Source: Enterobacter sp. 10-1
GTDB taxonomy: Bacteria; Pseudomonadota; Gammaproteobacteria; Enterobacterales; Enterobacteriaceae
Length of the DNA stretch: 64,000 bases
Direction: 5' to 3'
NCBI GenBank assembly: GCA_002270295.1
Contig: NISF01000005.1
Span: 248,555-312,554 of the forward strand
This document shows positions 16,458 through 42,009 of this stretch, in pieces. The notes beneath the pieces were generated by a model. The model was given only the letters and a program-made list of their open reading frames with translations, was not told where the DNA came from and did no database searches. How positions within the stretch are numbered: the stretch's first letter is position 1; each line of letters opens with the position of its first letter. A program made the position numbers and the translations under genes.

Positions 16458-17024
16458 ATGAACCATTATGATGATTTGCAGCGCTTCAAGGAAAAGACTC
16501 GTACACAAAGTCTTCATTTCAAGGACCTTTCATCACAATCAGCCGCCCGGGAACAGGGAGATTGGGTCATTCTCAATCAGCTCGCTCCTGGGGAAAAAGA
16601 ATCCTCGCTGGCAATGGGGGGGTCGGTATCGTTACCTCTGCCGCAGCAGGTCCCCGCGGATACGTTTCTGTGGGTTGAGGCTGCGCCAGTACAGGCCGCT
16701 CCTGAGCCATCTCCGCAGATCCTGACGCCAGAACCGGCCGCAGCGGCTCCTGTCGTCATGCCAGCTGCCGTCGCGCCGACACCGGTTGCCGAAGTCGCTG
16801 CCCCAGCGGAACCGGTGCAGGCGATCCCCGCAGCCGCACCGGTATCCGCATCCGCGCCGGTGATGAGCCCGCCGCCACCCGCAGCGCCTCGTCCGCAGCC
16901 GGCACCGATGCCGGCAGCGGAAGGCTATGCGCACTTATTTGCGACGAAAGTCGCTGAACCTGCGGCTAAAGATAAAGATCAGCCGCTTAAATCTCTTTTA
17001 GAAAGGATTGCGACATGCCGTTGA
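16458..17024 (+). CDS. bcsO: cellulose biosynthesis accessory protein BcsO (proline-rich)
   Basis: The 188-residue protein has three parts: a charged N-terminus (NHYDDLQRFKEKTRTQSLHF...QGDWVILNQLAPG, residues 1-45), a long Pro/Ala-rich low-complexity middle (about residues 75-155, with a PPPPAAPRPQPAPMP stretch) and a conserved short C-terminal tail (YAHLFATKV...LKSLLERIATCR). This plan fits BcsO, an accessory protein of unknown mechanism that is found before bcsQ in enterobacterial operons with bcsD. I prefer ATG 16458, with GGGG six bases upstream, to ATG 16446, which has no ribosome site. The stop overlaps bcsQ by ten bases. Confidence 0.8.
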   Translation: MNHYDDLQRFKEKTRTQSLHFKDLSSQSAAREQGDWVILNQLAPGEKESSLAMGGSVSLPLPQQVPADTFLWVEAAPVQAAPEPSPQILTPEPAAAAPVVMPAAVAPTPVAEVAAPAEPVQAIPAAAPVSASAPVMSPPPPAAPRPQPAPMPAAEGYAHLFATKVAEPAAKDKDQPLKSLLERIATCR

Positions 17025-17818
17025 TCTGCGTGTGTTCCCCAAAAGGCGGCGTAGGAAAAACGACCCTCGCAGCAAATCTGGCCTACTCGCTGGCGCGAGC
17101 GGGTAGCAAAGTTCTGGCATTAGATTTTGACGTCCAGAACGCGCTGCGCCTGCATTTTGGCGTCCCGCTTAGCGATGAGCGCGGGTACGTGGCGAAGTCA
17201 CTGGAGCTGCACGACTGGAGCCAGTGCGTGCTAAGCGCGGGCAGCAATATCTTCGTGCTGCCCTATGGCGACGTGACCGAAGAGCAGCATCAGGCGTTTG
17301 ACGTACGGCTCGCCAGCGATCCGCATTTCCTGACTCGCGGGCTGTCGGCGCTGCTCAATTACCCGGGACTGATTATTATCGCTGACCTTCCTCCTGGCCC
17401 CTCTCCGGCGCTGACGGCGTTAACGCCGCTGGCGGACCTGCATCTGGTGCCGCTGCTGGCGGATACCGCCTCGATGTCAACGCTATCGCATGTGGAAAAA
17501 CAGCGGCTAACCGGCGGTGCGCTCAATCATAAGCTTGGACACTTTTTCGTGATAAATCAGAGCGATAATCGCCGTCAGGTGAGCCGCGACGTGGTTGCGT
17601 TAATGGAAGATAAGCTGAGCGACCGCCTGCTGGGCATTATCCACCGGGATGAGAGCGTCGTAGAGGCAAATGCTTCCCAAAAGTCGATTCTCGACTTTAG
17701 TTCTTCCTCTTCAGCCGCCTTTGATATTGAAATTATTGCAAAAAAAATCTCTGCGCTGTTGGGTATCAATATTGGCGACGGCACGGTGCACAGCCAGCCT
17801 CGTATGTCAGGGCTTTAA
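17015..17818 (+). CDS. bcsQ: BcsQ, ParA/MinD-type ATPase of the first cellulose operon
   Basis: The 267-residue protein starts with a canonical deviant Walker A motif, KGGVGKTT (residues 10-17), followed by ALDFDVQNALRLHFG and IADLPPGPSPAL, typical of MinD/ParA-like ATPases. BcsQ acts at the inner-membrane face in cellulose secretion and, in E. coli, in polar placement of the machinery. This copy keeps both lysines of the P-loop, unlike the second BcsQ in this window. It overlaps bcsO by ten bases and has AAAGGA before the ATG. A serine-rich stretch (LDFSSSSSAAFD) lies near the C-terminus. Confidence 0.92.
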   Translation: MPLICVCSPKGGVGKTTLAANLAYSLARAGSKVLALDFDVQNALRLHFGVPLSDERGYVAKSLELHDWSQCVLSAGSNIFVLPYGDVTEEQHQAFDVRLASDPHFLTRGLSALLNYPGLIIIADLPPGPSPALTALTPLADLHLVPLLADTASMSTLSHVEKQRLTGGALNHKLGHFFVINQSDNRRQVSRDVVALMEDKLSDRLLGIIHRDESVVEANASQKSILDFSSSSSAAFDIEIIAKKISALLGINIGDGTVHSQPRMSGL

Positions 17819-17837
17819 CTTATTGCAGGGCTGCTGA

Positions 17838-19949
17838 ATGAAAAAGTCACTTTTCTGGTTGCTGGTACTGCTGCTGTCTCCGGTTGCCGTGCTGGTCGTT
17901 ATCACGCCAATGGACAGCCAAAAGCAGTATATTTTTGGTCTGCTGAGTATCGGCATTCTGTTCTTAATGGGGTTTAGCAAGAATCGCAGCGTTTCCGTCA
18001 TTATGGTCGTAACTTCGCTGCTTATGTCGACCCGTTACATGTATTTCCGCCTGACGCAAACCCTGCATTTTAACTCCGGAATAGAAACGATTCTGGGGAT
18101 GGGGCTATTTTTGGCGGAAGTCTATATCTGGGTGATGCTGCTGCTGAACTATCTGCAAACGGTCTGGCCGCTGAAGCGCGAAATTGTCCCGCTACCGGAT
18201 GATATGAGCACCTGGCCGACGGTCGATATTTATATCCCCAGTTATAACGAACCGCTCGAAGTGGTCCGCGATACGGTGCTGGCCGCCCAGTGTATTGATT
18301 ATCCAGCGGATAAGATGAAAATTTATCTGCTGGACGACGGTAAGCGCAGCGAGTTTGCGGTCTTTGCCGCCGATGTTGGGGTGGGATATATCACCCGTAA
18401 CGACAACAAGCATGCCAAAGCGGGCAACCTGAACCACGCGATGACCCTGACCCAGGGGGAGCTTATTTGCGTGTTTGACTGCGACCACGTCGCAACCCGC
18501 GTCTTCCTGCAGGCCACGGTGGGCGGCTTCCTCAAGGACCCGATGCTGGCGCTGGTGCAGACGCCGCACTACTTCTACTCGCCGGACCCGTTTGAACGCA
18601 ACCTCTCCGTCGGGCGCAATATCCCCAATGAAGGGATGCTGTTTTATGGCCCAATCCAGCAGGGTAACGACAACTGGAACGCGACCTTCTTCTGCGGCTC
18701 CTGCGCCGTTATTCGCCGTAAAGCGCTGGAGCAGATTGGCGGTTTTGCGGTCGAAACCGTCACCGAAGATGCGCACACCGCGCTCAAGTTTCAGCGCCTG
18801 GGCTGGAAATCGGCGTTCCTCGATATCCCGCTGGCGGCAGGCTTAGCCACCGAACGTTTAGTGGTGCACGTCATTCAGCGAACCCGCTGGGCGCGCGGTA
18901 TGACGCAAATCTTCCGCCTCGATAACCCGCTATTTGGCCGCGGGCTGACCATCCAGCAGCGTCTGTGCTATCTCAGCGCCATGCTTTACTACCAGTTTGC
19001 GCTGCCGCGCGTGGTTTTTGTTACCGCGCCGCTGGCCTACCTGCTGTTTAACCTGAATATTATCTACTCCTCGGCGAGCCTGATCGTCTCGTATGCTCTG
19101 CCGCACCTGTTCCTGGCCATCTACGTTGGCTCAAGGATGAACGGCCGCTATCGCTACAGCTTCTGGGGCGAAATTTACGACATCGTCCTGGCATTCCACC
19201 TGGTACTGCCGACGCTGGTGACGATGATTTTCCCCAAACGCGGCAAATTCAACGTGACCGATAAAGGCGGCCTGCTGGACGTAGGCTACTTCGACTTTAC
19301 CGTTGTCAGACCGCATCTGGTGGTGGCCTGCCTGCTGGGCGTCGGCGTCGTGGTTGGTCTCGTGCGCGCCATCGGCCATGACTATTTCGGCTCCGATCCC
19401 AACGTTATCGCGCTGAACGTCGGGTGGGGGATTTACAGCCTGATCTTCCTCCTGGCGGCGATTGCGGTGGCGCGGGAAACCCGCCAGGTGCGTAAAACGA
19501 TTCGTATTGACGTGGATATCCCGGTGCTCATCCACTATGCGAGCGGCATTGTCTCCCGCAGCCATACCGCCGACCTGTCGATGGGCGGCTGCCGTATCGC
19601 CGTGCCTGACGATCGCCACCTGCAGGATAAAATTGAAGAGATTGAGCTGATTCTGCAGTCCGGGGCGATCTGTATCCCCGCCGAGCAGGTCACCGCGGAT
19701 GCGCGCTTTATTCGCCTCAAGTTTGATGAAAATATCCCGCTCTCCCTGCGCCGCGAGCTGGTGCGCGTGGTGCTGGCCCGCGCCGACGCGTGGATTAATC
19801 CGGCGCGTCCGCAGGATAAGCCGTTCCGCTCTTTCGCCACCATTCTGCGCTGCGTATTTGAGCTGTTCTGGCTGACGTGGAAAACGCGACGCGACCGGCG
19901 TCGGCAACGTCCTGCTGCGCAGACCGCGCAGGAGGATGGCCACCTATGA
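17838..19949 (+). CDS. bcsA: cellulose synthase catalytic subunit BcsA (first operon)
   Basis: The 703-residue inner-membrane glycosyltransferase (GT2) makes beta-1,4-glucan from UDP-glucose and threads it through its membrane channel. Catalytic motifs are in order: LLDDG (about 167), DCDH (about 214), TED (about 308) and QRTRW (about 345). Membrane helices flank the GT domain. The C-terminal PilZ domain has RKTIR (about 551) and DLSMGG (about 577), the RxxxR and DxSxxG pair that binds cyclic di-GMP. It is about 170 residues shorter than the E. coli-type BcsA of the second operon because it lacks the long N-terminal extension. The stop overlaps bcsB by four bases. Confidence 0.96.
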   Translation: MKKSLFWLLVLLLSPVAVLVVITPMDSQKQYIFGLLSIGILFLMGFSKNRSVSVIMVVTSLLMSTRYMYFRLTQTLHFNSGIETILGMGLFLAEVYIWVMLLLNYLQTVWPLKREIVPLPDDMSTWPTVDIYIPSYNEPLEVVRDTVLAAQCIDYPADKMKIYLLDDGKRSEFAVFAADVGVGYITRNDNKHAKAGNLNHAMTLTQGELICVFDCDHVATRVFLQATVGGFLKDPMLALVQTPHYFYSPDPFERNLSVGRNIPNEGMLFYGPIQQGNDNWNATFFCGSCAVIRRKALEQIGGFAVETVTEDAHTALKFQRLGWKSAFLDIPLAAGLATERLVVHVIQRTRWARGMTQIFRLDNPLFGRGLTIQQRLCYLSAMLYYQFALPRVVFVTAPLAYLLFNLNIIYSSASLIVSYALPHLFLAIYVGSRMNGRYRYSFWGEIYDIVLAFHLVLPTLVTMIFPKRGKFNVTDKGGLLDVGYFDFTVVRPHLVVACLLGVGVVVGLVRAIGHDYFGSDPNVIALNVGWGIYSLIFLLAAIAVARETRQVRKTIRIDVDIPVLIHYASGIVSRSHTADLSMGGCRIAVPDDRHLQDKIEEIELILQSGAICIPAEQVTADARFIRLKFDENIPLSLRRELVRVVLARADAWINPARPQDKPFRSFATILRCVFELFWLTWKTRRDRRRQRPAAQTAQEDGHL

Positions 19950-22342
19950 AGCGATTAACGACTTTTGCGCTGCTGGCGGGGATCCTCTCCGCCCCCGCGC
20001 TGCATGGCGAAGAGACGCCGGCCGACCGCTCGGCGCAGCTGAACTTCCCGCTGCCGGACGCGGCTACCGATAGCGAGCCGGATGAAGGCGCCGCGCCTGC
20101 TCCGACGGCGGCGGAACCCGAATCGACAGAGGCGCCGGCTTCTCTGCCCGCGATGCCGCCGGTGAGCAACCCTGCTCCTGACGTCGTGCCGCTAACGCCG
20201 ATCGTCGGCGGCAGCCTGAATCTGGCGCAAATGGGGATGCCGGACGGCATTATGCTGAGCGGCGGCCAGCTGCAGGGCGGCGCGAGCTTTACGCTGCCTT
20301 CCGATCAGGTGGTCACCCACGCCGAGCTGATGCTGGACGTCCGGGTTTCGCCGGAGATGGCGGCCCGCAACGCCACCCTGCAGCTGATGCTCAACGGCCA
20401 GCCGCTGGGCACGGTACCGCTGGGTACGGACGGCGCCGATATTTCGCACTTCCAGCTCGATATCCCGGCGGCGCTGATGGTTTCGAGCAATAATTTAAGC
20501 TTTAAGGTGAACGACGGCGACGCCATGCAGTGTCAGCTCAATACGCGCGACACCTCCGGCATCACCGTGTTGCCCGCCTCGCGCTTTAGCTGGGAAAGCC
20601 AGCCGCTGAATATCAGCAACGACCTGAGCTACTTCCCGCGGCCGTTCTTCGACAGCATGCAGATGACCCCGGCGGATATCGCCATCGCCTACCCGCAGAA
20701 ATCGGGTGCGGATATCTTCAGCACGGCGGCGCTGGTGTCGTCATGGCTGGGCATCCAGGCGGATTATCGCGGGATTGCTTTTAATGCCCTGCGCGACCGT
20801 TTGCCGGAGCGACACGGCATTATCATCGGCCACCCGGGCGACCAGGTGGGCGGCTTGACCCTGCCGCAAACCGACAAGCCGCTGCTGCAGGTTGTTGATA
20901 ATCCTGGCAACCCGACCTATAAGCTGCTGATGATCGTCGGCCAGAACGATGCGGCGCTGCGCGCGGCGGCCTGGCGGCTGACCCGCGGCGATATTGCGCC
21001 GCAGACCGCAAGCATGACGGTGGACCCGCAGGCCATTCCGCTGGGTAAACCGTACGACGCTCCGCGCTGGATCCCCACCGATCGGCCGGTAAAAATCAGC
21101 GAGCTGCTGCGTAAAGATCAAAGCCCGACGGTGAGCGGCGTGTGGCACGAACCGCTGCGCGTTGCTTTCCGCGCGGCGCCGGATCTCTATCTGTGGGATG
21201 GCGAAACCATTCCCCTGCAAATTAGCTACCGCTTCCCGTCAGAAAGCTGGATCAACGAAGATAAGTCGCTGCTTAGCGTTACGCTGAACAACACCTTCCT
21301 GCACAATCTGCCGATGAACAAACAGGGGCCGCTGGAGAAGCTTTGGCGTCACCTGGGCGGCGATGCTCGCCAGGAGCGCTTTACCATCCCGCTGGCGCCT
21401 TACCTGATCTACGGGGATAACCAGCTTTCGCTCTACTTCAACGTTGTTCCGAAGGATAGCGCCCCCTGCTCGGTGCTGTTGAATAACAACATCAAGAGCC
21501 GCATTACCGATGACTCATGGATCGATTTGAGCAACACGCGGCACTTCTCGCTGCTGCCGAACCTCTCCTATTTCGTCGGCGCTTCGTTCCCGTTCTCGCG
21601 GCTGGCGGACTACTCGCAAACCGTGCTGCTGTTGCCGGAGCAGCCTTCGGAAACGCAGGTAGCTACCCTGTTGAACCTGGCCGCGCGTTCGGGTAATGCA
21701 ACCGGCACGGCGCTGGCCAACAACCGGGTGGTGCTGGGGATCCCTGAAGGCGGCGCGGGCCTGCAGTATCTGCGGGATCGCGACGTGCTGGCGGTCAGCG
21801 CCCTTGACCAGAAAACGTTTAACCAGAGCCTGCTGGCGAATTCTCCCTACAGTCCGGTGGATAACCAGCTCAGCGTTCGTGAATCAGGAAGCTGGGCGAA
21901 GGTGCAGCGCTGGCTGACCGGCGACTGGACCTCCGCGAGCGTCGATGCCGACCGCTACTTCTCCTCCAGCAGCGCCTGGCGCGGCTTTATCAGCTACCGT
22001 TCGCCGTGGAATTCACAGCGTACGGTGGTGGTGGCGATGGCCAGCAATGACGATCAGCTCGCGAGGCTGAAAAGCGACCTCGACTCGCCGCGGATCAACG
22101 CCGGCATCCGGGGCGATACGGCGGTGATCACCAGCGATAACGGCGTACGCAGCTTCCAGGTTAGCACGCCGTTCCCAAGCGGCCAGATGCCCTGGTACAT
22201 GATGGCTATCTGGTACGCCAACCAGCACTCCGGCCTGCTGGCGATCCTTGGGCTGATCGCGACATCGATAGTCGGTCTGGCGTTAACCGCCATGTTTAAA
22301 CGGCATGCTCGCAAGCGTTTGAGTTCGGGGGATGGCCAATGA
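19946..22342 (+). CDS. bcsB: cellulose synthase periplasmic subunit BcsB (first operon)
   Basis: The 798-residue protein starts with a signal peptide (MKRLTTFALLAGILSAPALHG) and an Ala/Pro/Glu-rich linker (about residues 30-85), then the carbohydrate-binding and flavodoxin-like repeats of BcsB (VTHAELMLDVRVSP; LSYFPRPFFDS; WSSAS-type barrels) and a C-terminal membrane anchor (ILGLIATSIVGLALTAMF). It forms the inner-membrane complex with BcsA and guides the glucan across the periplasm. ATG 19946 overlaps the bcsA stop (ATGA) and has AGGAGG at 19930; a longer in-frame start within bcsA has no ribosome site and would hide the signal peptide. Confidence 0.93.
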   Translation: MKRLTTFALLAGILSAPALHGEETPADRSAQLNFPLPDAATDSEPDEGAAPAPTAAEPESTEAPASLPAMPPVSNPAPDVVPLTPIVGGSLNLAQMGMPDGIMLSGGQLQGGASFTLPSDQVVTHAELMLDVRVSPEMAARNATLQLMLNGQPLGTVPLGTDGADISHFQLDIPAALMVSSNNLSFKVNDGDAMQCQLNTRDTSGITVLPASRFSWESQPLNISNDLSYFPRPFFDSMQMTPADIAIAYPQKSGADIFSTAALVSSWLGIQADYRGIAFNALRDRLPERHGIIIGHPGDQVGGLTLPQTDKPLLQVVDNPGNPTYKLLMIVGQNDAALRAAAWRLTRGDIAPQTASMTVDPQAIPLGKPYDAPRWIPTDRPVKISELLRKDQSPTVSGVWHEPLRVAFRAAPDLYLWDGETIPLQISYRFPSESWINEDKSLLSVTLNNTFLHNLPMNKQGPLEKLWRHLGGDARQERFTIPLAPYLIYGDNQLSLYFNVVPKDSAPCSVLLNNNIKSRITDDSWIDLSNTRHFSLLPNLSYFVGASFPFSRLADYSQTVLLLPEQPSETQVATLLNLAARSGNATGTALANNRVVLGIPEGGAGLQYLRDRDVLAVSALDQKTFNQSLLANSPYSPVDNQLSVRESGSWAKVQRWLTGDWTSASVDADRYFSSSSAWRGFISYRSPWNSQRTVVVAMASNDDQLARLKSDLDSPRINAGIRGDTAVITSDNGVRSFQVSTPFPSGQMPWYMMAIWYANQHSGLLAILGLIATSIVGLALTAMFKRHARKRLSSGDGQ

Positions 22343-25300
22343 AAAGAGCGATCAAAATGAATAGCAGGGCAACCCACAGATTATCAACCTTCTGCCTGTC
22401 TGGCGCGCTGACGCTGGGCGCATTCGGCGATGCCCTGGCCGCGAGCAACGATGCCGCGCTGCAGGCGCTTTTTGCCCAGGCCAACTACTGGCATGAAAAA
22501 TCCCACGACGAGCTGGCGATGGAGTCGCTGCAAAAGGTGCTGCTGGTTGATGCCAACAACACCCAGGCGCTGTACCTGATGGCGCTCTGGGCACAGCAGG
22601 GCGGCGATCTTCAGGCGGCGGCGCAGTGGCGGGCACGGCTGGCGAAAACCTCGCCGAACAGCGCCAGCCTGCAGGAGCTCGATAATGCCAGGAAAATGAC
22701 CCAGGTGCCGCAGGGGCAGCTGAGCCTCGCGAGGCAGCAGGCGCGTAGCGGCAACGTGCCCGCCGCGCTCGCCACCTGGCGCAGCATGTTTAACGGCAAT
22801 ACCCCGCCGGCGGGGCTGGCGGCCGAATACTACATGACGATGGCCAGCGATAAATCGCTCTATCCGCAGGCGCTCAGCGAACTGCGGCAGTACGTGGCGC
22901 AGCATCCGCAGGAGAACGCGCCGCGGGTGGCGCTGGGGAAAGCGCTGACCTGGCGTGAAGATACCCGTCGGGAAGGGATCGCGATGCTGGAGCCGATGGC
23001 CAGCGGCAGTAAAGATGCCGATAGCGGACTGCGCCAGGCGCTGCTGTGGCTGGGGCCGCAGTCCGGAGACCAGCAGTTTTACGACACCTGGATGCAGCGC
23101 CACCCGCAGGACACCGAGGTGCAGAACTATTATCGCCAGCGGCTAAGCGGCCAGGCGCGCGGGGAGGGGTACGCCAACCTCAACAGCGGCAACACCGCCG
23201 CCGCGAAGCAGCAGTTTGAACAGGTGCTGCAAACCAACCCGCAGGACGCGGATGCGCTGGCCGGCATGGGCTATATCGCCCAGCGTAACGGTGATTTTCA
23301 GGCGGCATCACAGTATTTGACCCGGGCGGCGGATCTTGGCGGCGATGATTCCGCCGCCCGGCGCCAGCAGGCTGCCGATGCGCTGTTCTACGGCCAGCTG
23401 GCCCAGGCGCAGCAGGCCTATAAGCAGGGCAATATCAGCCAGGCGCTGGCGCTTTCCGCCCCGCTGGCCCAGCAGAGCGGGGCGCGGGGCACCTCGGCAA
23501 AACTGTTCCGTGCCGACGTTCTGCGACATAACAAAGACCTGCCGCAGGCCGAGCAGACGCTGCGTTCGCTGCTCAACGAGCAGCCGCAAAACGGCCCGGC
23601 GCGGGAGAGCCTCTATTACGTGCTGCGCGAGCAGAATAAAACGGCGGAGGCGCAGGCGATGCTGCGCACGCTGCCGGAAAACCTACAGCAAAAACTGCAG
23701 CCGCGGGTCGTGACCGGCATGCCGGGCGACTCGCTGCGCCGGCAGGCGCAGGAGCAGGCCAGCAGCGGTAACGTTAGCGGCGCCATCGCGCTGCTGCGCC
23801 AGGGCGTATCCCGCTACCCGGATGATGCCTGGATGCGGCTTGATTTAGCCCGGCTGCTGCAAAAATCGGGCAACGAGAGCGAAGCCGCCTCGACGATGGC
23901 GGCGGCCTGGCGTCCCGGCGCCAGCAGCAGCTCGCTGTACGCCGCGGCGCTTTATGCCAGCGAAAACGGCGGCTGGCAGCAGGCGCAAACGCTGCTGGGG
24001 CGTATTCCCGCCGCCAGCCAGACCAGCCAGATGCGCGATCTCCATCAGCGGGTGAACTACAACCTGCAGCTGGTGACGGCACAAAACTATCTGGCGCAGG
24101 GCAATACGGTTGCCGCCTCCAACACCCTGCGGGCGATGGCCGCCACGCCGCCGAAATCGCCGGCGGACGTCGGCAAGCTGGCGCGACTGCTGGCGCAGAG
24201 CGGCGATGTCACGACCGCCGTCTCGCTGGTACGCAACAATATCAGCGGCGGGATCTCGGGCAATGCCGGCGATTATGCCGATCAGGTGACGGTGCTTAAC
24301 CAGGCGGGCCTGACCCGTGAAGCGCAGAACCTGCTGACCAACCCGCAGCTGCAGGCCAGCAGTACGCCGACGCAGCTGGCGAGCATTCGCAACGGCTATG
24401 TGATCAACGAAGCGGATCATCTGCGCGAGCAGGGAAACTACGCCGCGGCGTATGACAAGCTGATGGGCGCGATGCAAAGCGACCCGCAAAATACCGACCT
24501 GATGTTCGCGATGGCGCGTCTCTACCAGAGCGGCAAAATGAACAAAGAAGCCGGGGTGGTTTACGACTATCTGATGACCCGCGATACGCCGGATCAGGCG
24601 GCGCGCAGCGGGGCGATTGATGTTGCGCTTTCGTCCGGCGACAGCGACCGCGCGGAGCAGCTCGCCGGCGGGCTGCGTCAGGACAATTCGGCGGACCGCC
24701 TGCTGCTGCTGGCGCGGGTGGAAGAGGCGCAGGGACATCATCAGCAGGCGATGACCTATCTGCGCAGCGCGCGCGGCAAGCTGCTGGGCTTACAGAGCAG
24801 CAACAGCGCGCAAACGCCGACCGTTGGCGGCGTGCTGGCGGCGGATAACCCCTTCGTGGGCGTCTCCCGTACCCCGACGGCGACGCGGACGGCCTCGACC
24901 TACGGGCAGTATATGCCGTGGCAGGTCTCGCAGGTGTCGGCAGGCGCCGGGACCTCGCTGCCGGGGATCCAGCGTCCCGATCTGCCGGTAGAAACCGCGC
25001 AGACCCGCATGCTGCGTCAGGTGGATACCATGATGGAGTCGCTGCAGGAAAAGACCGGCAGCTGGCTGCAGGGCGGGATGGAGGTGCGCGGACGTGATGG
25101 CGAATCCGGTACCAGCAAGCTGACGGAAATGAAAACGCCGCTGACCTGGTCCTCGTCGCCGTTTGGCGATTCGCGCTTTGATTTCACGGTGACGCCGATC
25201 ACGCTGAATGCCGGCACCGCCACCGGCGATGCGTGGCGGCGCTACGGCGCGAACCCGCTCTCTAACGCGGTCTCTAATATGATCAGTACCGCGACCAGCG

Positions 25301-27902: not shown

Positions 27903-27939
27903 GCCGCGGGGGTAAAACCCTGCGGCCTTTTTCGTTTTT
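27903..27939 (+). terminator. terminator after the first bcs operon
   Basis: GCCGCGGGG (27903-27911) pairs with CCCTGCGGC (27918-27926) around a GTAAAA loop and is followed by CTTTTTCGTTTTT. It ends the plus-strand operon just before the convergent bcsG stop. Confidence 0.9.
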
Positions 27940-31531: not shown

Positions 31532-31720
31532 ATGTCAGGAAAAGAGCCTGTAGTGCCCTCAGATGCAACGCTGGGTTATACCTTTCAAAATGATTTCCTG
31601 GCATTAAGCCGGGCATTTTCTCTGCCTGAAATTGATTACCACGACATTTCCCGACGCGAGCAGCTAGCTGCGGCGCTGAAACGCTGGCCATTACTGGCAG
31701 AATTAGCAGAGAAAAAGTAA
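31532..31720 (+). CDS. bcsR: BcsR, small cellulose regulator
   Basis: The 62-residue protein equals E. coli BcsR (YhjR) in length when started at ATG 31532, and aligns without gaps (GYTFQNDFLALSRAFSLPEIDY; REQLAAALKRWPLLAE). An ATG four codons earlier (31520) is possible but has no ribosome site either. BcsR pairs with BcsQ as a cytosolic regulator of the synthase; in E. coli the BcsRQ complex joins BcsE and BcsA. It is the first gene of the second operon. Confidence 0.93.
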   Translation: MSGKEPVVPSDATLGYTFQNDFLALSRAFSLPEIDYHDISRREQLAAALKRWPLLAELAEKK

Positions 31721-31738: not shown

Positions 31739-32473
31739 ATGGCTATTCTTGGATTACAGGGCATCCGTGGCGGCGTGGGCACAACGTCGATTGCCGCGTC
31801 GCTCGCCTGGGCGCTACAGCAGCTGGGTGAAACGGTTCTGGTGGTTGATGCCAGCCCGGATAATATGCTGCGCTTTTTTTTCAACGTCGATGCCGGCCAT
31901 CGCGAAGGGTGGGCGCGGTCCTTAATTGACGGCGGCGACTGGCGCGACGCCGGCATGCGCTATACCTCCCATATTGATATTTTACCCTTCGGTCAGCTGA
32001 CGCCGGGCGAAAGAGAGCATCTCGACAGGCTCTACCCGACGCTGGAGCCGCTGGCCGATATCGTGCAGCAGCTCAGCCAGCAGGGCGATCGTCGCTGGCT
32101 GCTGCTCGATTTACCCGCGGATTTTTCCCCGCTGACCCGCTCGCTGCTCGACGTCTGCAACCGTACGCTGGTGGTGGTGCACCCGGACGGCAACAGCCAT
32201 ATTCGCCTGCATCAGCAGGCGCTGGCGGCGAACCGCGATATTCTGATCAACGATCTGCGGGTTGGCAGCCAGCTGCAGGAAGATTTATATCAGCTCTGGC
32301 TGGAGAGCCAGCGGCGCATTCTGCCGATCGCCATTCATCGTGATGAGGCGATGGCGGAGTGCCTGGCGGCGAAGCAGCCGCTGGGTGAGTATCGGCAGGA
32401 CTCTCTGGCGGCGGAAGAGATCCTGACGCTTGCCAACTGGTGCCTGCTGCACTACTCCGGCAAGGGGGCGTAA
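31739..32473 (+). CDS. bcsQ: BcsQ, MinD-like ATPase of the second cellulose operon
   Basis: The 244-residue protein resembles E. coli BcsQ (250 residues): MAILGLQGIRGGVGTTSIAA at the N-terminus, VVDASPDNMLR, IHRDEAMAECLAAKQPLGEY and the C-terminal LANWCLLHYSG. The P-loop reads RGGVGTTS, so both lysines of the KGGxxKT motif are replaced, as in E. coli. Codon 6 is TTA (Leu); E. coli K-12 has a stop at this codon that silences its operon, so this copy is intact. The stop overlaps the bcsA start by one base. Confidence 0.96.
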   Translation: MAILGLQGIRGGVGTTSIAASLAWALQQLGETVLVVDASPDNMLRFFFNVDAGHREGWARSLIDGGDWRDAGMRYTSHIDILPFGQLTPGEREHLDRLYPTLEPLADIVQQLSQQGDRRWLLLDLPADFSPLTRSLLDVCNRTLVVVHPDGNSHIRLHQQALAANRDILINDLRVGSQLQEDLYQLWLESQRRILPIAIHRDEAMAECLAAKQPLGEYRQDSLAAEEILTLANWCLLHYSGKGA

Positions 32474-35091
32474 TGATGCGCCTGAGCACGCTGCTGCTGG
32501 CTCCCCCGGTCGCCGAACGCCTGAGCGAACGCTACGGCGACTATCGCCAGCACGGCGCGTCGTGGCTCGCGGCGACGCTGGGCTGCCTGTGGGCGGCGCT
32601 GGCGTGGGCGCTGATGCCGCTGGAAACTCCGCGCTGGCAGGCGATCCTCGCCAGGCACGGCGACTATTTCCCGCATATTAATCCCCACCGGCCGCGGCCG
32701 CTCGATCCGCTCCGCTACCTGCTGCAATCCGTGTGGCTGCTGACGACCCGGGTGCCTGAGCCGGAGAAAAAGGTCAACTGGCGCTCCCTGGCGGCCCTCG
32801 AAGGCGTGCACGGCCGCTATGCGCAGTGGTTGGACACCTTCCCCGAACGGGTGAACACCCGCACCGGTCATCTGGATAAATACAAAGAGCTGGCGCACCT
32901 CAATCCTACGCTGCGCAAGGCGATCCTCAGCGTGGTGGTTTTTTTCTCGCTGATCCTCGCGCTACTCTGCATCACCCAGCCGTTTAACCCGATTTCGCAG
33001 TTTATCTTCCTGCTGCTGCTGTGGGGCGTGGCGCTGATGGTGCGGCGCATTCCGGGGCGCTTCTCGGCGCTGATGCTCATCGTGCTCTCGCTCACCGTCT
33101 CCTGCCGCTATATCTGGTGGCGCTATACCTCGACGCTGAACTGGGACGATCCCGTTAGCCTGGTGTGCGGGCTGGTGCTGCTGTTCGCCGAAACCTACGC
33201 CTGGCTGGTGCTGGTGCTGGGGTATTTCCAGGTGATATGGCCGCTCAACCGTCAGCCGGTGCCGCTGCCCAAAGATATGGCCGAGTGGCCGACGGTCGAT
33301 ATTTTCGTGCCCACCTATAACGAAGACCTGAACGTGGTGAAAAATACCATTTACGCTTCGCAGGGCATCGACTGGCCGAAAGATAAGCTGAATATCTGGA
33401 TCCTCGATGACGGCGGGCGCGAAGAGTTTCGCCAGTTCGCCAGGGACGTCGGGGTGCACTACATCGCCCGCGAGACGCACGAGCACGCGAAGGCCGGGAA
33501 CATCAACAATGCGCTGAAATATGCCAACGGCGAGTTCGTCTCCATTTTCGACTGCGACCACGTCCCGACGCGCTCTTTCCTGCAGATGACGATGGGCTGG
33601 TTCCTGAAAGAGAAAGAGCTGGCGATGATGCAGACGCCGCACCACTTTTTCTCGCCGGACCCGTTTGAACGCAACCTCGGGCGTTTTCGTAAAACCCCGA
33701 ACGAGGGCACCCTGTTTTATGGCCTCGTGCAGGACGGCAACGATATGTGGGACGCCACCTTCTTCTGCGGCTCCTGCGCGGTGATTCGCCGCGGGCCGCT
33801 CGATGAAATCGGCGGTATTGCCGTCGAAACGGTGACCGAAGATGCGCATACCTCCCTGCGCCTGCACCGCCGGGGCCATACTTCCGCCTATATGCGTATT
33901 CCGCAGGCCGCCGGGCTGGCGACCGAAAGCCTGTCGGCGCATATCGGCCAGCGTATCCGCTGGGCGCGCGGGATGGTGCAGATTTTCCGTCTCGACAACC
34001 CGCTGTTCGGTAAAGGGCTCAAGCTGGCGCAGCGGCTCTGCTACGTCAATGCGATGATGCACTTCCTGTCCGGCATTCCGCGGCTGATCTTCCTGACCGC
34101 GCCGCTGGCCTTTTTACTGCTGCACGCCTATATCATCTATGCTCCCGCGCTGATGATCGCGCTGTTTGTGTTGCCGCATATGATTCACGCCAGCCTGACT
34201 AACTCGAAGATTCAGGGTAAATATCGCCACTCTTTCTGGAGCGAAATCTACGAGACGGTGCTGGCCTGGTATATTGCGCCGCCGACCTTCGTCGCGCTGA
34301 TTAACCCGCATAAGGGCAAGTTCAACGTCACGGCGAAGGGCGGTCTGGTGGAGGACGAGTACGTCGACTGGGTTATCTCTCGTCCCTACATCTACCTCGT
34401 GCTGCTTAACCTGGTTGGCGTCGGGGTCGGCATCTGGCGCCACTTCTACGGTCCGGAAAACGAAATACTGACCGTTTGGGTCAGCATCGTCTGGGTGTTT
34501 TATAACCTGATTATTCTCGGCGGCGCGGTGGCGGTATCGGTAGAAAGTAAGCAGGTCCGCCGCTCGCACCGCGTGGAAATGAACATGCCGGCGGCGATTG
34601 CCCGCGAAGATGGCCACCTCTTCTCCTGCACCGTCCACGACTATTCTGACGGCGGGATCGGGATCAAAATTCACGGTAAAGCGCAGGTCCTGGAGGGACA
34701 GCAGGTCAATCTGCTGCTCAAACGCGGCCAGCAGGAGTACGTCTTCCCGACGCGGGTGGCGCGGGTGAACGATAGTGAAGTCGGCCTGCAGCTGCTGCCG
34801 CTGACCAATAAGCAGCATATCGATTTTGTGCAGTGTACGTTTGCCCGCGCTGATACGTGGGCGCTTTGGCAGGATAGCTTCCCGGAAGATAAACCGATGG
34901 AAAGCCTGCTGGATATCCTGAAACTGGGGTTCCGTGGATATCGTCACCTGGCGGAGTTCTCGCCGCCGTCGGTGAAGGTTATTTTCCGCTCGCTCACCCT
35001 GCTGGTTGCCTGGATAGTCTCGTTTATTCCCCGTCGTCCCGAACGCGCCGCGGCGATACTAACTTCGGAACCAGAAATGGCTCAACAATGA
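32473..35091 (+). CDS. bcsA: cellulose synthase catalytic subunit BcsA (second operon)
   Basis: With ATG 32473 the protein has 872 residues, exactly as in E. coli. It has an extended N-terminal region, GT2 motifs ILDDGG (about 310), DCDH (about 359), TED (about 455) and QRIRW (about 493), channel helices, and a PilZ domain with RRSHR (about 696) and DYSDGG (about 723) for cyclic di-GMP. It synthesises and translocates glucan with BcsB. Identity to E. coli is very high through the GT domain. The start is tied to the end of bcsQ (one-base overlap), with GGGGG just before. Longer starts inside bcsQ lack support. Confidence 0.97.
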   Translation: MMRLSTLLLAPPVAERLSERYGDYRQHGASWLAATLGCLWAALAWALMPLETPRWQAILARHGDYFPHINPHRPRPLDPLRYLLQSVWLLTTRVPEPEKKVNWRSLAALEGVHGRYAQWLDTFPERVNTRTGHLDKYKELAHLNPTLRKAILSVVVFFSLILALLCITQPFNPISQFIFLLLLWGVALMVRRIPGRFSALMLIVLSLTVSCRYIWWRYTSTLNWDDPVSLVCGLVLLFAETYAWLVLVLGYFQVIWPLNRQPVPLPKDMAEWPTVDIFVPTYNEDLNVVKNTIYASQGIDWPKDKLNIWILDDGGREEFRQFARDVGVHYIARETHEHAKAGNINNALKYANGEFVSIFDCDHVPTRSFLQMTMGWFLKEKELAMMQTPHHFFSPDPFERNLGRFRKTPNEGTLFYGLVQDGNDMWDATFFCGSCAVIRRGPLDEIGGIAVETVTEDAHTSLRLHRRGHTSAYMRIPQAAGLATESLSAHIGQRIRWARGMVQIFRLDNPLFGKGLKLAQRLCYVNAMMHFLSGIPRLIFLTAPLAFLLLHAYIIYAPALMIALFVLPHMIHASLTNSKIQGKYRHSFWSEIYETVLAWYIAPPTFVALINPHKGKFNVTAKGGLVEDEYVDWVISRPYIYLVLLNLVGVGVGIWRHFYGPENEILTVWVSIVWVFYNLIILGGAVAVSVESKQVRRSHRVEMNMPAAIAREDGHLFSCTVHDYSDGGIGIKIHGKAQVLEGQQVNLLLKRGQQEYVFPTRVARVNDSEVGLQLLPLTNKQHIDFVQCTFARADTWALWQDSFPEDKPMESLLDILKLGFRGYRHLAEFSPPSVKVIFRSLTLLVAWIVSFIPRRPERAAAILTSEPEMAQQ

Positions 35092-35101
35092 TGATAATGC
35101 G

Positions 35102-37435
35102 ATGAAAAGAAAACTCTCCTTGATTTGTGCAGTGGCGGTGGGAATGGCTGGCTGGTACCCCTTCGCGTCTTATCCGGAACCTACGGCGGCGCCGACCGCC
35201 GCCGTGACTCTCCCTACCCCGGAGCCCACCCTCGCGGAAGGTCAGCCAACGGCGACCGTCGTTGACCCGGCCGCGCCGGTGGTGGTGGCGGAAAATATCC
35301 CGACCCGCGACGTCAAGCTGAGCTTTGCCAAAATCGCTCCGGCGCCGGGCAGCATGGTACTGCGCGGCGCGCGTCCCGATGGCTCGGTAGAGTTTGGTAT
35401 GCGTAGCGACGAGGTGGTGGCAAAAGCGCTGCTCAATCTCGACTATACGCCGTCGCCGTCGCTGCTGCCGGTACAGTCGCAGCTGAAGGTCTACCTCAAC
35501 GATGAGCTGATGGGCGTCCTGCCGGTCACTAAAGAGCAGTTGGGTAAAAAGGTCCACGCGCAGATCCCCATCGATCCGCTGTATATCACCGACTTTAACC
35601 GCGTTCGTCTGGAGTTTGTCGGCCATTATCGCGACGTTTGTGAGAACCCGGCCAGCAGCACGCTGTGGCTGGACGTCGGGCGCGACAGCAACCTGGACCT
35701 GACCTATCAGTCGCTGAAGGTCCGCAACGATCTGTCCCATTTCCCGGTGCCATTCTACGACTCCCGGGATAACCGCCCGCTGACTTTACCGATGGTTTTC
35801 GCCTCAGCGCCGGACGCCCGGCAGCAGCAGGCGGCGGCGATTGTCGCCTCCTGGTTTGGCAGCAAGGCCGGCTGGCGCGGCCAGCAGTTCCCGGTCTATT
35901 TCAACGATCTGCCGGATCGCAATGCCATCGTTTTTGCCACCAACGACAGACGCCCGGATTTCCTGCGCGAGCGCCCGCCGGTTAACGCGCCGACTATCGA
36001 AATGATTGACCATCCGGACACCCCGTACGTCAAGCTGCTGGTGGTGCTGGGCCGTGACGATAAAGATCTGCTGCTGGCGGCGAAGGGCATTGCGCAGGGC
36101 AATATCCTGTTCCGCGGCAGCAGCGTGGTGGTGGACGACGTTAAGCAGCTGCAGGCGCGTAAACCTTACGATGCGCCAAACTGGGTGCGGACCGACCGCG
36201 CGGTGACCTTTGCTGAACTGAAAACCTACGAACAGCAGCTGCAGTCCAGCGGGCTGGTGCCAGACTCGATTAACGTGGCGCTCAACCTGCCGCCGGATCT
36301 CTATCTGCTGCGCGCCAACGGCATCGATATGGATCTGAAATATCGCTACACCATGCCGCCTGTCAAAGATAGCTCGCGCATGGATATCAGCCTGAATGAC
36401 CAGTTCCTGCAGTCGTTCAGCCTCAACAGCTCTCAGGACGTCAACAAGCTGCTACTCCGCCTGCCGGTGCTGCAGGGGCTGCTGGACGGTAACACCGCGG
36501 TGACTATCCCGGCGCTGCGCCTGGGGGCCATGAACCAGCTGCGCTTTGATTTCCAGTACATGAACCCGATGCCGGGTGGCTCAATTGATAACTGTATTAC
36601 CTTCCAGCCGGTACAGAACCACGTGGTGATTGGCGACGATTCGACGATTGATTTCTCGAAGTATTACCACTTTATCACCATGCCGGACCTGCGGGTCTTT
36701 GCCAACTCGGGCTTCCCGTACAGCCGGATGGCCGACCTCGCCGAAACCCTGGTGGTGGTGCCGAAAACGCCGACCCCAGGGCAGGTCGCAACGCTGCTGG
36801 AATCCGTCGGCGGCATCAGCGCCCAGACCGGCCTGGCGGCGATTAATATCCAGCTAACCGATGACGGGAGCCAGATTAAGGGCAAAGACGCCGACCTGCT
36901 GCTGATCGGCTCAATTCCGCCTGCGCTGAAGGACGATACGCAGATTAGCCTGCTGGTTGAGGCGACGAAAAGCTGGGTGAAAATGCCGATGCGCCACTAC
37001 GAGCTGCCGAGCATTTATCCTGACGATGAAGCCCGGACGCCGAATACGCGTGCGGACATCACCTCTTCCGGCCCGATGGCGGCCATTATTGGCTTCCAGT
37101 CGCCGTATCACGACCAGCGTAGCGTCGTGGCGCTGCTGGCGGACAGCGCGCGCGGCAACGAACTGCTCAATGACGCGCTGAACGACAGCGGGAAACGAGC
37201 GGCGATGTTTGGTTCGGCGGTGGTCGTTCGTGAATCCGGCGTCAACAGCCTGCGGGTGGGCGATGTCTATTATGTCGGGCATCTGCCGTGGTTTGAGCGC
37301 ATCTGGTTTGCGCTCTCCAACCATCCGGTGCTGCTGGCTATTCTGGCGGCGGTCAGCATCGTGCTGCTGGCGTGGGTACTGTGGCGCATGCTGCGTATCG
37401 TCAGCCGTCGTCGCCTGCACCTGGATGATGAGTAG
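35102..37435 (+). CDS. bcsB: cellulose synthase periplasmic subunit BcsB (second operon)
   Basis: The 777-residue protein (E. coli BcsB 779) has a signal-like N-terminus (MKRKLSLICAVAVGMAGW), a Pro/Thr/Ala-rich linker, the two carbohydrate-binding/flavodoxin-like repeats (VRNDLSHFPVPFYDSRDN; SKYYHFITMPDLRVFANSGF) and a C-terminal membrane helix (VLLAILAAVSIVLLAWVLW) followed by basic residues. It anchors to BcsA and passes the glucan through the periplasm. In E. coli several copies form a half-ring. It begins ten bases after bcsA and is followed directly by bcsZ. Confidence 0.96.
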   Translation: MKRKLSLICAVAVGMAGWYPFASYPEPTAAPTAAVTLPTPEPTLAEGQPTATVVDPAAPVVVAENIPTRDVKLSFAKIAPAPGSMVLRGARPDGSVEFGMRSDEVVAKALLNLDYTPSPSLLPVQSQLKVYLNDELMGVLPVTKEQLGKKVHAQIPIDPLYITDFNRVRLEFVGHYRDVCENPASSTLWLDVGRDSNLDLTYQSLKVRNDLSHFPVPFYDSRDNRPLTLPMVFASAPDARQQQAAAIVASWFGSKAGWRGQQFPVYFNDLPDRNAIVFATNDRRPDFLRERPPVNAPTIEMIDHPDTPYVKLLVVLGRDDKDLLLAAKGIAQGNILFRGSSVVVDDVKQLQARKPYDAPNWVRTDRAVTFAELKTYEQQLQSSGLVPDSINVALNLPPDLYLLRANGIDMDLKYRYTMPPVKDSSRMDISLNDQFLQSFSLNSSQDVNKLLLRLPVLQGLLDGNTAVTIPALRLGAMNQLRFDFQYMNPMPGGSIDNCITFQPVQNHVVIGDDSTIDFSKYYHFITMPDLRVFANSGFPYSRMADLAETLVVVPKTPTPGQVATLLESVGGISAQTGLAAINIQLTDDGSQIKGKDADLLLIGSIPPALKDDTQISLLVEATKSWVKMPMRHYELPSIYPDDEARTPNTRADITSSGPMAAIIGFQSPYHDQRSVVALLADSARGNELLNDALNDSGKRAAMFGSAVVVRESGVNSLRVGDVYYVGHLPWFERIWFALSNHPVLLAILAAVSIVLLAWVLWRMLRIVSRRRLHLDDE

Positions 37436-37441
37436 ACCATG

Positions 37442-38548
37442 ATGAATGCGCTACGCGGAGCGGTGATATCGCTGTTGATGCTGGCGGCGGCGCAGGCCAG
37501 CGGCGCCTGCCGGTGGCCGGCCTGGGATCAGTTCAGGAAAGAGTACGTCAGCGCCGAAGGGCGCGTGGTTGACCCCGGCGATCCGCGGAAAATCACCACT
37601 TCTGAAGGGCAAAGCTATGGCCTGTTCTTCGCCCTGGCGGCCAACGATCGCGATGCGTTCGGCCAGCTGCTGCAGTGGACGCAGAACAACCTCGCCGAGG
37701 GCGATCTGCGCGCGCATCTGCCCGGCTGGCTGTGGGGCAAAAAGAGCGATAGCGAGTGGACGATGCTGGACAGCAACTCGGCCTCCGACTCGGATCTGTG
37801 GATAGCCTGGTCGCTGCTGGAGGCCGGGCGCCTGTGGCAGATGCCGCAGTACGTTGAGGTGGGGAAAGCGCTGCTGTCGCGCATTGCCGATGAAGAGGTG
37901 GCGGACGTGCCGGGGCTGGGGCCGCTGGTGCTGCCGGGGAAGGTCGGCTTTGCCGACGATAAAGGCTGGCGCTTCAATCCCAGCTATCTTCCGCCGCAGC
38001 TGGCGAACTATTTTGTCCGCTACGGCGCGCCCTGGCCGAAGCTGCGCGACGGCAATATCCGCCTGCTGCTGGAGACGGCGCCAAAGGGCTTCTCCCCGGA
38101 CTGGGTACGCTACGAGAAAGAGAAGGGCTGGCAGCTGAAGGCGGATAAACCGATTATCGGCAGCTATGACGCGATCCGCGTCTATCTGTGGGTCGGCATG
38201 CTCAACGACGCCGATAAGCAGAAAGCGCGGCTGCTGGCGCATTTTAAACCGATGGCGGAACAGACCATTCGCCAGGGCCTGCCGCCGGAAAAAGTGAATA
38301 TCGCCGCGGCGAAGACCACCGGCAACGGTCCGGTGGGGTTCTCGGCCTCGCTGCTGCCGTTTTTACAAAATGAGGATGCCCGGGCCGTTCAGCGCCAGCG
38401 GGTCAGCGACAACTATCCCGGCGCGGACGCGTACTACAACGCGGTCCTGACCCTTTTTGGCCAGGGATGGGATCAACATCGCTTTCGCTTTACCGCCGAT
38501 GGCGAATTACAACCTGACTGGAACCAGGAATGCGCAAGTTCTCACTAA
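37442..38548 (+). CDS. bcsZ: endo-1,4-beta-glucanase BcsZ, GH8 (second operon)
   Basis: Started at ATG 37442, the protein has 368 residues as in E. coli BcsZ. It has a signal peptide (to about residue 21, before ACRW), the GH8 acid Glu55 in TTSEGQSYG and the base Asp243 in SYDAIRV, at the same numbers as E. coli. The block [23 protein letters not shown] lines the glucan cleft. An ATG one codon earlier also exists. The last 19 bases overlap bcsC. It is longer than the first operon's BcsZ and lies between bcsB and bcsC, not at the operon end. Confidence 0.96.
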
Positions 38549-41500
38549 CGTTTATCACCCTGACCTTGGGAGTTGCGCTCCTGCCGCTGGCCCAGGCGGA
38601 GACCACGCCTGCTCAGGACCATCTGCTGGAACAGGTGCGGCTGGGGGAAGCGAGCAATCGTGAAGATCTGGTGCGTCAATCGCTGTACCGGCTGGAGCTG
38701 ATTGACCCGAACAATCCGGACGTTATCTCCGCGCGGATGCGCTATCTGCTGCGCCAGGGCGATACCGAAGGGGCAAAGAAACAGCTCGATCGCCTGGCGA
38801 AGCTGGCCCCGGATTCGATCGCTCTGAAATCCTCGCGTAGCGAAATGAACCTCAGCACCGGCGATGGGCGTCAGGCGCTGCAGCAGGCGCGCCTGCTGGG
38901 CATCTCGGGGCATGTCGAAGAGGGGGTGGCCGCGTTCGAAAAGCTGTTCGGCGGCGCCCCGCCGGATGAAACGCTTGCCATTGAATACTGGTCGCTGGTG
39001 GCGCGTCTGCCGGCCCGGCATAACGAAGCCGTCGGCCAGCTTAAAAAAATTAACGCCCGCTCGCCGGGCAACGTCACCCTGCAAACCGCGCTGGCTAAGC
39101 TGATGTTTGCCGACAATAAGCCGGATGAAGGCTTTGCCTGGCTGGAGCAGATGTCGCGCTCTGCCGCCGGCCGCGGCGCTGCCGCCTCGATGTGGTTCGA
39201 CAAAATAAAAGATATGCCGGCAAGCCGCGCCAGCGTGCAGGCGCTTCAGCGCTTTCTGGTTCTCTTCGCTACCGGCGAGTCGGCGGCTAATGCCCGGGTG
39301 CTGCTCGATCGGCAGCAGGCGCAGCTTAAAGACCCGACGTTCCGCGCCCGCTCCGAAGGGCTGGCGGCAGTCAAAAGCGATAAACCTTCTCAGGCGGTGG
39401 CGGATTTACAGCAGGCCGTTCGCGCGGATGCGAAGGACAGCGACGCCGTGGGCGCGCTGGGGCAGGCCTACTCCCGGCGCGGCGATCGCGCCCGCGCCGT
39501 GACGCAGTTGAATAAAGCGCTCGCGATGGCGCCGGATAGCCCGAATCGCGATAAATGGCGCAGCCTGCTGCAAACCAACCGCTACTGGCTGCTGATAAAG
39601 CAGGGCGATAGCGCGCTGAAGGCCGGGCAGCTGGCGCAGGCGCAAAGCGCTTACGCGCAGGCGCAGCGGGTGGATCGCACCGACAGCTACGCGGTTCTTG
39701 GCCTTGGCGACGTGGCTGCCGCGCGCAAAGAGAGCGCCGCGGCGGAGAGCTATTATCAACGCGCGCTGCGCATGGATCGCGGCAATAGCCTGGCGGTACG
39801 CGGGCTGGCGAACCTCTATCGTGCGGAATCGGCGGAAAAAGCCAGCGCATTTATCGCCGGACTGACGCCGGCCCAGCGGCGCAGCATTGACGATATCGAA
39901 CGCAGCCTGACCAACGAGCGCCTGGAAAAGCAGGCTGAGGCGCTGGAGAGCCAGGGTAACTGGGCGCAGGCTGCGGAAGTGCAGCGTCGACGCCTGGCGC
40001 TCGACCCCGATAGCGTCTGGATCACATACCGCCTGTCGCGAGATTTAGTGAACGCAGGTGAGCGGGCCGAGGCGGATGCGCTGATGCGCACGATGGCCAG
40101 CCGCAGGCCGGGCGATGCCGAACGGGTGTATGCCTGGGGCCTTTATTTATCCGGCAACGGCCAGGACGACATGGCCCTGGCGCAGATTAACGCTCTGCCG
40201 CGTAGCCAGTGGAACGACAATATTCGCGAGCTTGAGGCGCGTCTGCGGAGCGACAAGATTCTGCGCCAGGCCAACGGGCTGCGCGACGCGGGTCAGGAGG
40301 CGCAGGCGATTGCGCTGATTAAGCAGCAGCCCGCTTCGGTTCGCTACGATCTGACCCTCGCCGACTGGGCGCAGCAGCGCGGCGACGCGCAGGCGGCGAT
40401 CCTCCAGTACAACGCGGCGTTGCGTAAAGAGGCCAGTAACGGCGACGCCCGGCTGGGGCTGGCGGAAGTCTACCTTGCCGAGGGCGACAAGAACGCCGCG
40501 CGCGCGCAGGTCGCGCAGCTGAAGGGCGAGGACGCCGCATCGATCAATTTGCAGCGGCGAGTCGCGCTGGCTGAGGCCGGGCTGGGCAACGCGGCGCAGG
40601 CGCGGCAGATCTTTAGCCGTATCACCACCCAGGCGAAAGCGCAGCCGCCGTCGATGGAGAGCGCGCTGGTGCTGCGCGATGCGGCGCGTTTTCAGGCGCA
40701 AAACGGCCAGCCGCAGCAGGCGCTGGAAAGCTATAAAGACGCGATGGTGGCCTCCGGCGTGGCGACGGCTCGTCCGCAGGATAACAACACCTTCACCCGC
40801 CTCACCCGCAACGACGCCCACGACGACTGGCTGAAGCGCGGGATCCGCAGCGACGCGGCGGATCTTTATCGCCAGCAGGATCTTAACGTCACGCTGGAGC
40901 ATGATTACTGGGGGTCCAGCGGTACCGGCGGCTACTCCGATTTAAAAGCGCAAACGACGATGCTGCACGTGGACGCGCCGCTGGCCGCTGGCCGGATGTT
41001 CTTCCGTACCGATTTGGTCAATATGAACGCCGGCAGCTTCTCAACCAACGGCGACGGCAGCTATTCGCCGAGCTGGGGCACCTGCGGCGAAATTGCCTGC
41101 ACCAGCGGCAGCCTTCACCAGAGCGACGGCGGGGCGAGCGTGGCGGTAGGGTGGAAGAATGACACCTGGAGCGGTGATATCGGCACCACGCCGATGGGCT
41201 TTAACGTTGTCGATGTCGTCGGCGGTCTGAGCTACAGCGACGATCTTGGCCCGCTGGGCTACACCCTCAATCTGCATCGTCGGCCGATTTCCAGCTCCCT
41301 GCTGGCATTTGGCGGGCAGAAGGACAGCGGCAGCCATACCGGTAAAACCTGGGGCGGGGTGCGCGCCGACGGCGGCGGCGTCAGCCTGAGCTACGACAAA
41401 GGGGAAGCCAACGGCGTCTGGTCTTCGCTGGGGGCCGACCAGCTCACCGGCAAAAACGTCGCCGATAACTGGCGCGTGCGCTGGATGAGCGGCTACTACT

Positions 41501-42009
41501 ATAAAGTCATTAACGAGGATAACCGCCGCGTGACGGTCGGCCTGAGCAATATGCTCTGGCACTATGACAAGGACCTCAGCGGCTATACTCTGGGACAGGG
41601 CGGCTACTATAGCCCGCAGGAGTACGTCTCTTTCGCCGTGCCGGTGACCTGGCGTCAGCGTACCGAAAACTGGTCGTGGGAGCTTGGCGGCTCCGTCTCC
41701 TGGTCACATTCGCGGACGAAAACCGAGGCGCGCTATCCGCTGCTGAACCTCATACCCTCAGAGTATCGCGCCGATGCCAGCCAGCTCAGCGAGCAGGGCA
41801 GCAGCAGCCAGGGCTTTGGCTATACCGCCCGGGCGCTGGTCGAGCGGCGGGTTACCGGCAACTGGTTCGTGGGCGCGGCGGTCGATATCCAGCAGGCCAA
41901 GGACTATACCCCAAGCCATGCGCTGCTCTATGTTCGCTACTCGGCCTCCGGCTGGCAGGGCGATATGAATATGCCGCCGCAGCCGCTGGTTCCCTACGCT
42001 GATTGGTAG
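38530..42009 (+). CDS. bcsC: cellulose export outer-membrane protein BcsC (second operon)
   Basis: The 1159-residue protein (E. coli 1157) has a signal peptide (to about QAE, residue 23), about 19 TPR-like repeats forming a periplasmic scaffold, and a C-terminal barrel from about residue 785 ([21 protein letters not shown]) to the end ([16 protein letters not shown]). Highly conserved barrel blocks include [16 protein letters not shown] and [17 protein letters not shown]. It is the last gene of the operon and starts inside bcsZ. No clear intrinsic terminator follows; yhjK begins 284 bases later. Confidence 0.97.

Follow-up and report, generated by a model that had tools for sequence, protein, structure and literature searches.

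Type I and type II cellulose synthase operons side by side in Enterobacter sp. 10-1: assignment of bcsEFG to the type II half and a probable BcsR-like activator within BcsO

Described two-operon loci and the locus of Enterobacter sp. 10-1

Enterobacteria with two different bacterial cellulose synthesis (Bcs) operons in one genome have been described before, and the locus considered here, from Enterobacter sp. 10-1, is a further example. It lies in a window, the whole stretch of DNA that was analysed, of 64,000 nucleotides (GenBank assembly GCA_002270295.1, contig NISF01000005.1), whose positions are used throughout. Enterobacter/Kosakonia sp. FY-07 and Enterobacter sp. 638 (PMC4766428) have the same genes in the same order, with bcsGFE in the opposite orientation and a "hypothetical protein" in the place of bcsO. 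FY-07 differs further in having a third operon, bcsIII, which makes its cellulose, whereas the genome studied here has exactly two BcsB matches, and a search of it for a third BcsB found none. Klebsiella pneumoniae likewise combines two operon clades in one genome, A1 (bcsABZC) and B1 (bcsABC-Z), for which horizontal transfer has been suggested (PMC7112194); in the available part of that paper the classification rests on bcsA, bcsB, bcsC and bcsZ, with the sharing of bcsEFG and bcsO outside its scope. The type II system of E. coli (PMC11470070, PMC11379886) has in common with the window bcsRQABZC together with bcsEFG, the BcsA N-terminal domain, the SxxPRxP motif and BcsG Ser278, but no BcsD match was obtained in the control genomes, E. 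coli included. Beta-proteobacterial BcsPDQ systems of type I or hybrid type (PMC11470070) likewise combine BcsQ and BcsD with a proline-rich protein whose N-terminus is BcsR-like; where they have BcsP, the window has BcsO.

The cellulose locus consists of three blocks, namely bcsO-Q-A-B-C-D-Z on the forward strand (16458-27880), bcsG-F-E on the reverse strand (27938-31364) and bcsR-Q-A-B-Z-C on the forward strand (31520-42009), and is flanked by dpp peptide transporter genes on one side and by hmsP/dctA on the other. Every gene in the three blocks is open and matches its own family in Pfam/NCBIfam searches (E 0.001), with the exception of bcsO, and motif inspection found the catalytic and cyclic di-GMP (c-di-GMP) motifs retained in both BcsA copies, both BcsZ copies and BcsG. 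These results uphold the original prediction of two intact, different operons with kept BcsA, BcsZ and BcsG motifs, and its statement that two-operon clusters are known in related enterobacteria agrees with layouts in print (PMC4766428, PMC7112194). The locus is a real, well-formed type I and type II pair.

The explanation that we favor, and consider very probable, is that the pair encodes two autonomous c-di-GMP-activated synthases, of which the type II system (bcsRQABZC with bcsEFG) would make phosphoethanolamine-cellulose and the type I system (bcsOQABCDZ) unmodified cellulose. This reading is drawn from sequence: gene content, intactness, motifs, the lack of docking elements in BcsA1, the inheritance of bcsEFG together with the type II operon, and the BcsR-like N-terminus of BcsO. 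BcsE, BcsF, BcsR and BcsQ would assemble on BcsA2, whose N-terminal domain would dock a BcsG trimer that places phosphoethanolamine (pEtN) on BcsA2 cellulose; BcsA1 would be unable to dock BcsG, leaving the type I cellulose unmodified, and BcsO would tie BcsA1 and BcsQ1 to a BcsD scaffold. From the same evidence we infer both the two products and the binding of BcsO to BcsA1 and BcsD. Since the docking domain is confined to BcsA2, modification is predicted on the BcsA2 product only, and the question whether bcsEFG serves both operons can thereby be put as a precise prediction that names its molecular cause. What the comparison adds to the known layout is the assignment of bcsEFG to the type II half and, probably, an activator of BcsR type that the type I half carries inside BcsO.

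Intactness and use of both operons

A type I system is one in which BcsD is encoded with the BcsA-B-C synthase (PMC11470070), and the first operon is of this type, with the order A-B-C-D-Z. In type I systems BcsD also forms an intracellular scaffold together with a proline-rich partner, and BcsO, Pro/Ala-rich and conserved at both ends, would be the candidate for that partner here. On the forward strand, bcsO (16458..17024) is followed by bcsQ1 (17015..17818; TIGR03371, 189 bits), bcsA1 (17838..19949; 703 residues; TIGR03030, 849 bits), bcsB1 (19946..22342, its start placed by comparison; NF008324, 1315 bits), bcsC1 (22339..26391; 1350 residues; PF05420, 360 bits), bcsD (26394..26867; PF03500, 67 bits; PDB 8pog, BcsD of Enterobacter sp. 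638, E 9e-70) and bcsZ1, for a GH8 endoglucanase (26879..27880; PF01270, 321 bits). The crystalline-ribbon label for the BcsD/BcsO set is carried over from other bacteria and would apply here by analogy. The Walker A motif has the canonical form GGVGKTT in BcsQ1 (17015-17818) and the variant form GGVGTTS in BcsQ2 (31739-32473).

The bacterium belongs to the Klebsiella/Raoultella group. In named genomes, a scan for BcsD, from which entries highly similar to the window's genome may be missing, yielded 16 loci, with Raoultella terrigena nearest (98% identity for BcsA1 and 92% for BcsD), followed by other Raoultella and Klebsiella (below, labels in L denote sampled loci and labels in G sampled genomes). 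BcsC1 exceeds BcsC2 by about 190 residues, and the stop-to-stop frame of BcsC1 measures 1346-1365 codons in every one of the 16. Comparison with five of these loci (L041, L042, L045, L046 and L047) gave ratios of nonsynonymous to synonymous substitution rates (dN/dS) of 0.036-0.054 for BcsA1 and 0.062-0.078 for BcsA2; the largest values, 0.15-0.28, belong to BcsO and come in part from a sequence truncated where the stretch ends. In several cases dS is above 1 and saturated, and the set takes in genes other than BcsB2, BcsZ2 and BcsC2. Purifying selection acts on genes from each of the two operons. This selection points to the use of both operons, whereas the sole bench data, those from FY-07 (PMC4766428), point to no use under the conditions of that study: bcsI showed very low transcription, its knockout had no effect, and, as a point against two working synthases, the cellulose was made by the third operon. 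The type I operon might on these grounds be regarded as a silent or redundant acquisition, as might also be argued from the absence of BcsD in two of the four sampled genomes of the window's genus; set against the purifying selection, we consider this unlikely.

Assignment of bcsEFG to the type II operon

The second operon runs on the forward strand through bcsR (31520..31720; NF040717, 77 bits; PDB 6ybb, BcsR), bcsQ2 (31739..32473; NF007460, 430 bits), bcsA2 (32473..35091; 872 residues; NF008558, 1704 bits), bcsB2 (35102..37435; NF008325, 1344 bits), bcsZ2 (37439..38548; NF008305, 553 bits) and bcsC2 (38530..42009; 1159 residues; NF008520, 1951 bits). Next to it, on the reverse strand, lie bcsG, for a pEtN transferase (27938..29617; TIGR03368, 776 bits), bcsF (29614..29811; TIGR03493, 112 bits) and bcsE (29808..31364; PF10995, 667 bits). 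The features of type II are all present, since BcsE and BcsG are encoded, and BcsR-Q accompany a BcsA2 that has both a BcsG-recruiting-type N-terminal domain (about residues 1-140) and an SxxPRxP tail (SFIPRRP at 850). In E. coli BcsA, about 140 extra N-terminal residues recruit a BcsG trimer, the domain being sufficient for this, and SxxPRxP at 850-856 contacts the N-terminal domain (PMC11379886); the motif of BcsA2 stands at the same residue number, 850. BcsA1 has neither element and is not of the type II form, and its alignment begins only at BcsA2 residue 147. Among the named loci, SxxPRxP occurs in none of the 16 BcsA1 frames (that of L050, with an interruption ahead of the C-terminus, is uninformative there) and in all 12 BcsA2 frames recovered. 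In L050 (K. pneumoniae ATCC 13883) all three frames, BcsA1, BcsG and BcsA2, contain interruptions, due to either sequencing error or decay; the same frames are intact in the other loci having them.

The distribution of these markers was counted in 295 genomes of the family, one per species with none dropped, from matches at E 0.001. Matches were obtained to BcsD in 82 genomes, BcsG in 125, BcsR in 124, the BcsA2 N-terminal domain in 126, BcsE in 116 and any BcsB in 158. BcsD, BcsG and BcsR occur together in 52 genomes, BcsD alone in 30, BcsG and BcsR without BcsD in 72, and none of the three in 140; a single genome, G225, has BcsG without BcsD and without BcsR. All 52 genomes with BcsD and BcsG have BcsR, and not one of the 30 with BcsD and no BcsG has BcsR, BcsE or the BcsA N-terminal domain (the BcsD count takes in G104, with a match under the cut-off, G025, at the cut-off, and G026, with two partial matches, and G104 and G026 are among the 30). 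The domain query matched in every one of the 125 BcsG genomes, weakly in G225 (residues 99-140 only) and in G024 (residues 1-47 only, at a contig end). In G249 the domain is found without a BcsG match, the BcsA2 match there starting 670 bases from a contig end, and G191 has a weak, stop-ridden BcsE match and no BcsG. In G225 (L061, 4078-7340), the first ~103 residues of BcsA2 and the first ~187 of BcsE are missing, and no BcsR or BcsQ match is present, which looks like a single deletion spanning the divergent promoter. Two BcsD matches per genome are seen in G026 (partial), G028, G075, G141, G171, G189, G196, G236, G266 and G270, possibly reflecting a further operon like that of FY-07.

That bcsEFG goes with the type II half is probably due to a physical cause, namely that only BcsA2 has the BcsG docking elements, which are absent from BcsA1. 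Several points weigh against this assignment. The counts are of genomes, not of independent events. A BcsE match is missing in 10 of the 125 BcsG genomes; these ten, with BcsG and BcsR (G003, G046, G082, G133, G143, G155, G180, G238, G243 and G275), are possibly BcsE-less or diverged type II systems. Co-occurrence, moreover, is dedication by inheritance, and BcsG might meet the BcsA1 product in the periplasm that both share. BcsG is indeed active in the periplasm (PMC11470070), and no more than 8 kb separates BcsD from BcsG on one contig in 21 of the 52 two-system genomes, as might be expected if bcsEFG served both synthases and BcsG acted on either product. In the other 31, however, their distance on a shared contig exceeds 8 kb (10 genomes) or the two stand on different contigs (21 genomes, which may partly be assembly breaks). 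The "one shared bcsEFG set" of the original prediction is opposed by the co-occurrence of BcsG and BcsE with BcsR and the BcsA domain, all of which are absent from the 30 BcsD genomes just described, and by the lack in BcsA1 of both elements contacting BcsG in E. coli, so that we regard sharing as distinctly improbable. The alternative that it had offered, one pEtN-modified and one unmodified cellulose, fits the comparative evidence. A recent tandem duplication of one operon, which only the adjacency of the two would favor, is rejected on paralogue identity and can be practically discounted.

BcsO and its BcsR-like N-terminus

No Pfam or NCBIfam model matched the window's BcsO at E 0.001. Alignment across the named loci reveals conservation at both ends, YDDLQRFKxKT...FKDLS...W.ILNQL at the N-terminus and LKSLLERIATCR at the C-terminus, on either side of a Pro/Ala-rich middle that varies, and the BcsR-like segment is the N-terminal one. 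Among 40 regions fetched from upstream of BcsD, 38 have a BcsQ1 match and 35 a BcsO with the N-terminal motif; BcsO is present in all 13 regions fetched from the 30 BcsD-alone genomes.

With BcsO members chosen by motifs at both ends and the profile trimmed at a [YL]DD[LIM] motif picked by eye, the BcsO N-terminal profile (41 sequences) scored 25.6 across 41 columns in an hhalign alignment with the helical core of BcsR (probability 81%, E 1.2e-5); none of 200 column shuffles reached this, the highest giving 14.0, and the reversed profile gave 7.6. A set of 46 BcsO and 33 BcsR sequences gave 80% and E 1.5e-5 against full BcsR; trimming neither side gave 41% and E 2.8e-4, which is weaker and still positive. 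In searches of 7474 open reading frames (ORFs) with hidden Markov models, the BcsO N-terminal model placed 26 of the 33 BcsR ahead of every unrelated ORF (the best of these at E 4), only three of the BcsR having E under 0.01, and the BcsR model placed 10 of the 46 BcsO ahead of every unrelated ORF (best at E 4.3), with a best E of 0.012 among the BcsO. The BcsO of G213 (146 residues, both ends typical) scores 22.6 bits with the Pfam BcsR model PF10945, below its cut-off of 25.2. In E. coli BcsR, roles have been described for the triad Asp21, the base aromatic Tyr36 and the hydrophobic plug residues 25, 29, 31 and 34 (PMC11470070). At ungapped offsets, the BcsO counterparts are the triad Asp in 46/46, a base aromatic Phe/Tyr in 44/46, and at the plug positions Phe at 25 (46/46), Thr at 29 (36/46), Thr at 31 (27/46) and Ile/Leu/Val at 34 (40/46). 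BcsA1 R221 and R648, which would face the Asp of the plug, match BcsA2 R367 and R792; this pair was set aside as non-discriminating evidence for a plug, R. sphaeroides BcsA also having Arg at the first place (by eye).

Judged by these similarities, the BcsO N-terminus and BcsR are likely to be of common descent, and it is plausible that the two bind in the same mode. A fuller proposal, for which we put the chances only a little above even, is that BcsO is a BcsR plug fused to a scaffold part, with ~45 N-terminal residues of a diverged BcsR that would hold BcsA1 active and a C-terminus, LxxLLExIAxCR, that would capture BcsD, so that the two operons would share one activation principle with private plugs and bcsEFG would be strictly private to the BcsR machine. 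If true, a separate BcsA plug comes with each operon, and type I and type II synthases of enterobacteria have a common activator. The BcsR-like N-terminus of BcsP, the proline-rich partner in beta-proteobacteria, is published (PMC11470070), and in the available parts of PMC9693552 and PMC11231211 bcsO is listed as a gene. The likeness of BcsO to BcsR was not found in the literature surveyed, which excluded the likeliest place, Sana 2024 (Curr Biol); it is possibly new and may already be in print.

Relatives with one or both systems

Behind the first operon, bcsG and bcsR follow in 12 of the 16 named loci, with bcsG within ~1.5 kb of bcsZ1. In Enterobacter sp. BIGb0383 (L055) bcsG stands about 7.6 kb past bcsZ1, and in the sampled stretch of L049, L053 and L054 it was not found. 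Klebsiella indica (L049) has bcsOQABCDZ and then hmsP ~0.5 kb on, in a genome with one BcsB and no BcsG match, and two Superficieibacter genomes likewise have one BcsB and no BcsG match; in each of the remaining 13 named genomes two BcsB accompany a BcsG, which in K. pneumoniae ATCC 13883 is split. In G001 and G242, from the window's genus, bcsGFE and bcsR-Q-A begin ~0.5 and 1 kb, respectively, behind dppF, the first operon being absent from the interval, and each genome has one BcsB and no BcsD match. K. indica and G001/G242 are natural single-system genomes at the same locus, usable for comparison. Relative to the 57 bp in the window, the bcsZ1-bcsG gap is longer by ~0.5-1.4 kb in L042-L048 and L051.

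Intergenic and neighboring features

The bcsEFG genes are divergent from bcsR across an intergenic region of 155 bp (31365..31519) and convergent with bcsZ1 across the 57-bp gap, which contains a terminator-like stem (27903..27926) found by pattern scan only. A promoter pattern scan found seven candidates against 7.3 expected and is uninformative. At Rfam gathering scores no RNA regulator was found in the cluster, the only matches being a tRNA followed by an RtT RNA (RF00391) on the forward strand at 9465-9695. An EptA/EptB-type pEtN transferase (PF00884, PF08019), the second such transferase near bcsG, is encoded on the forward strand at 7644-9374, and an hmsP-like gene for a GGDEF/EAL protein (42294..44300, forward strand; NF008807, 770 bits, cut-off 733) adjoins the type II operon.

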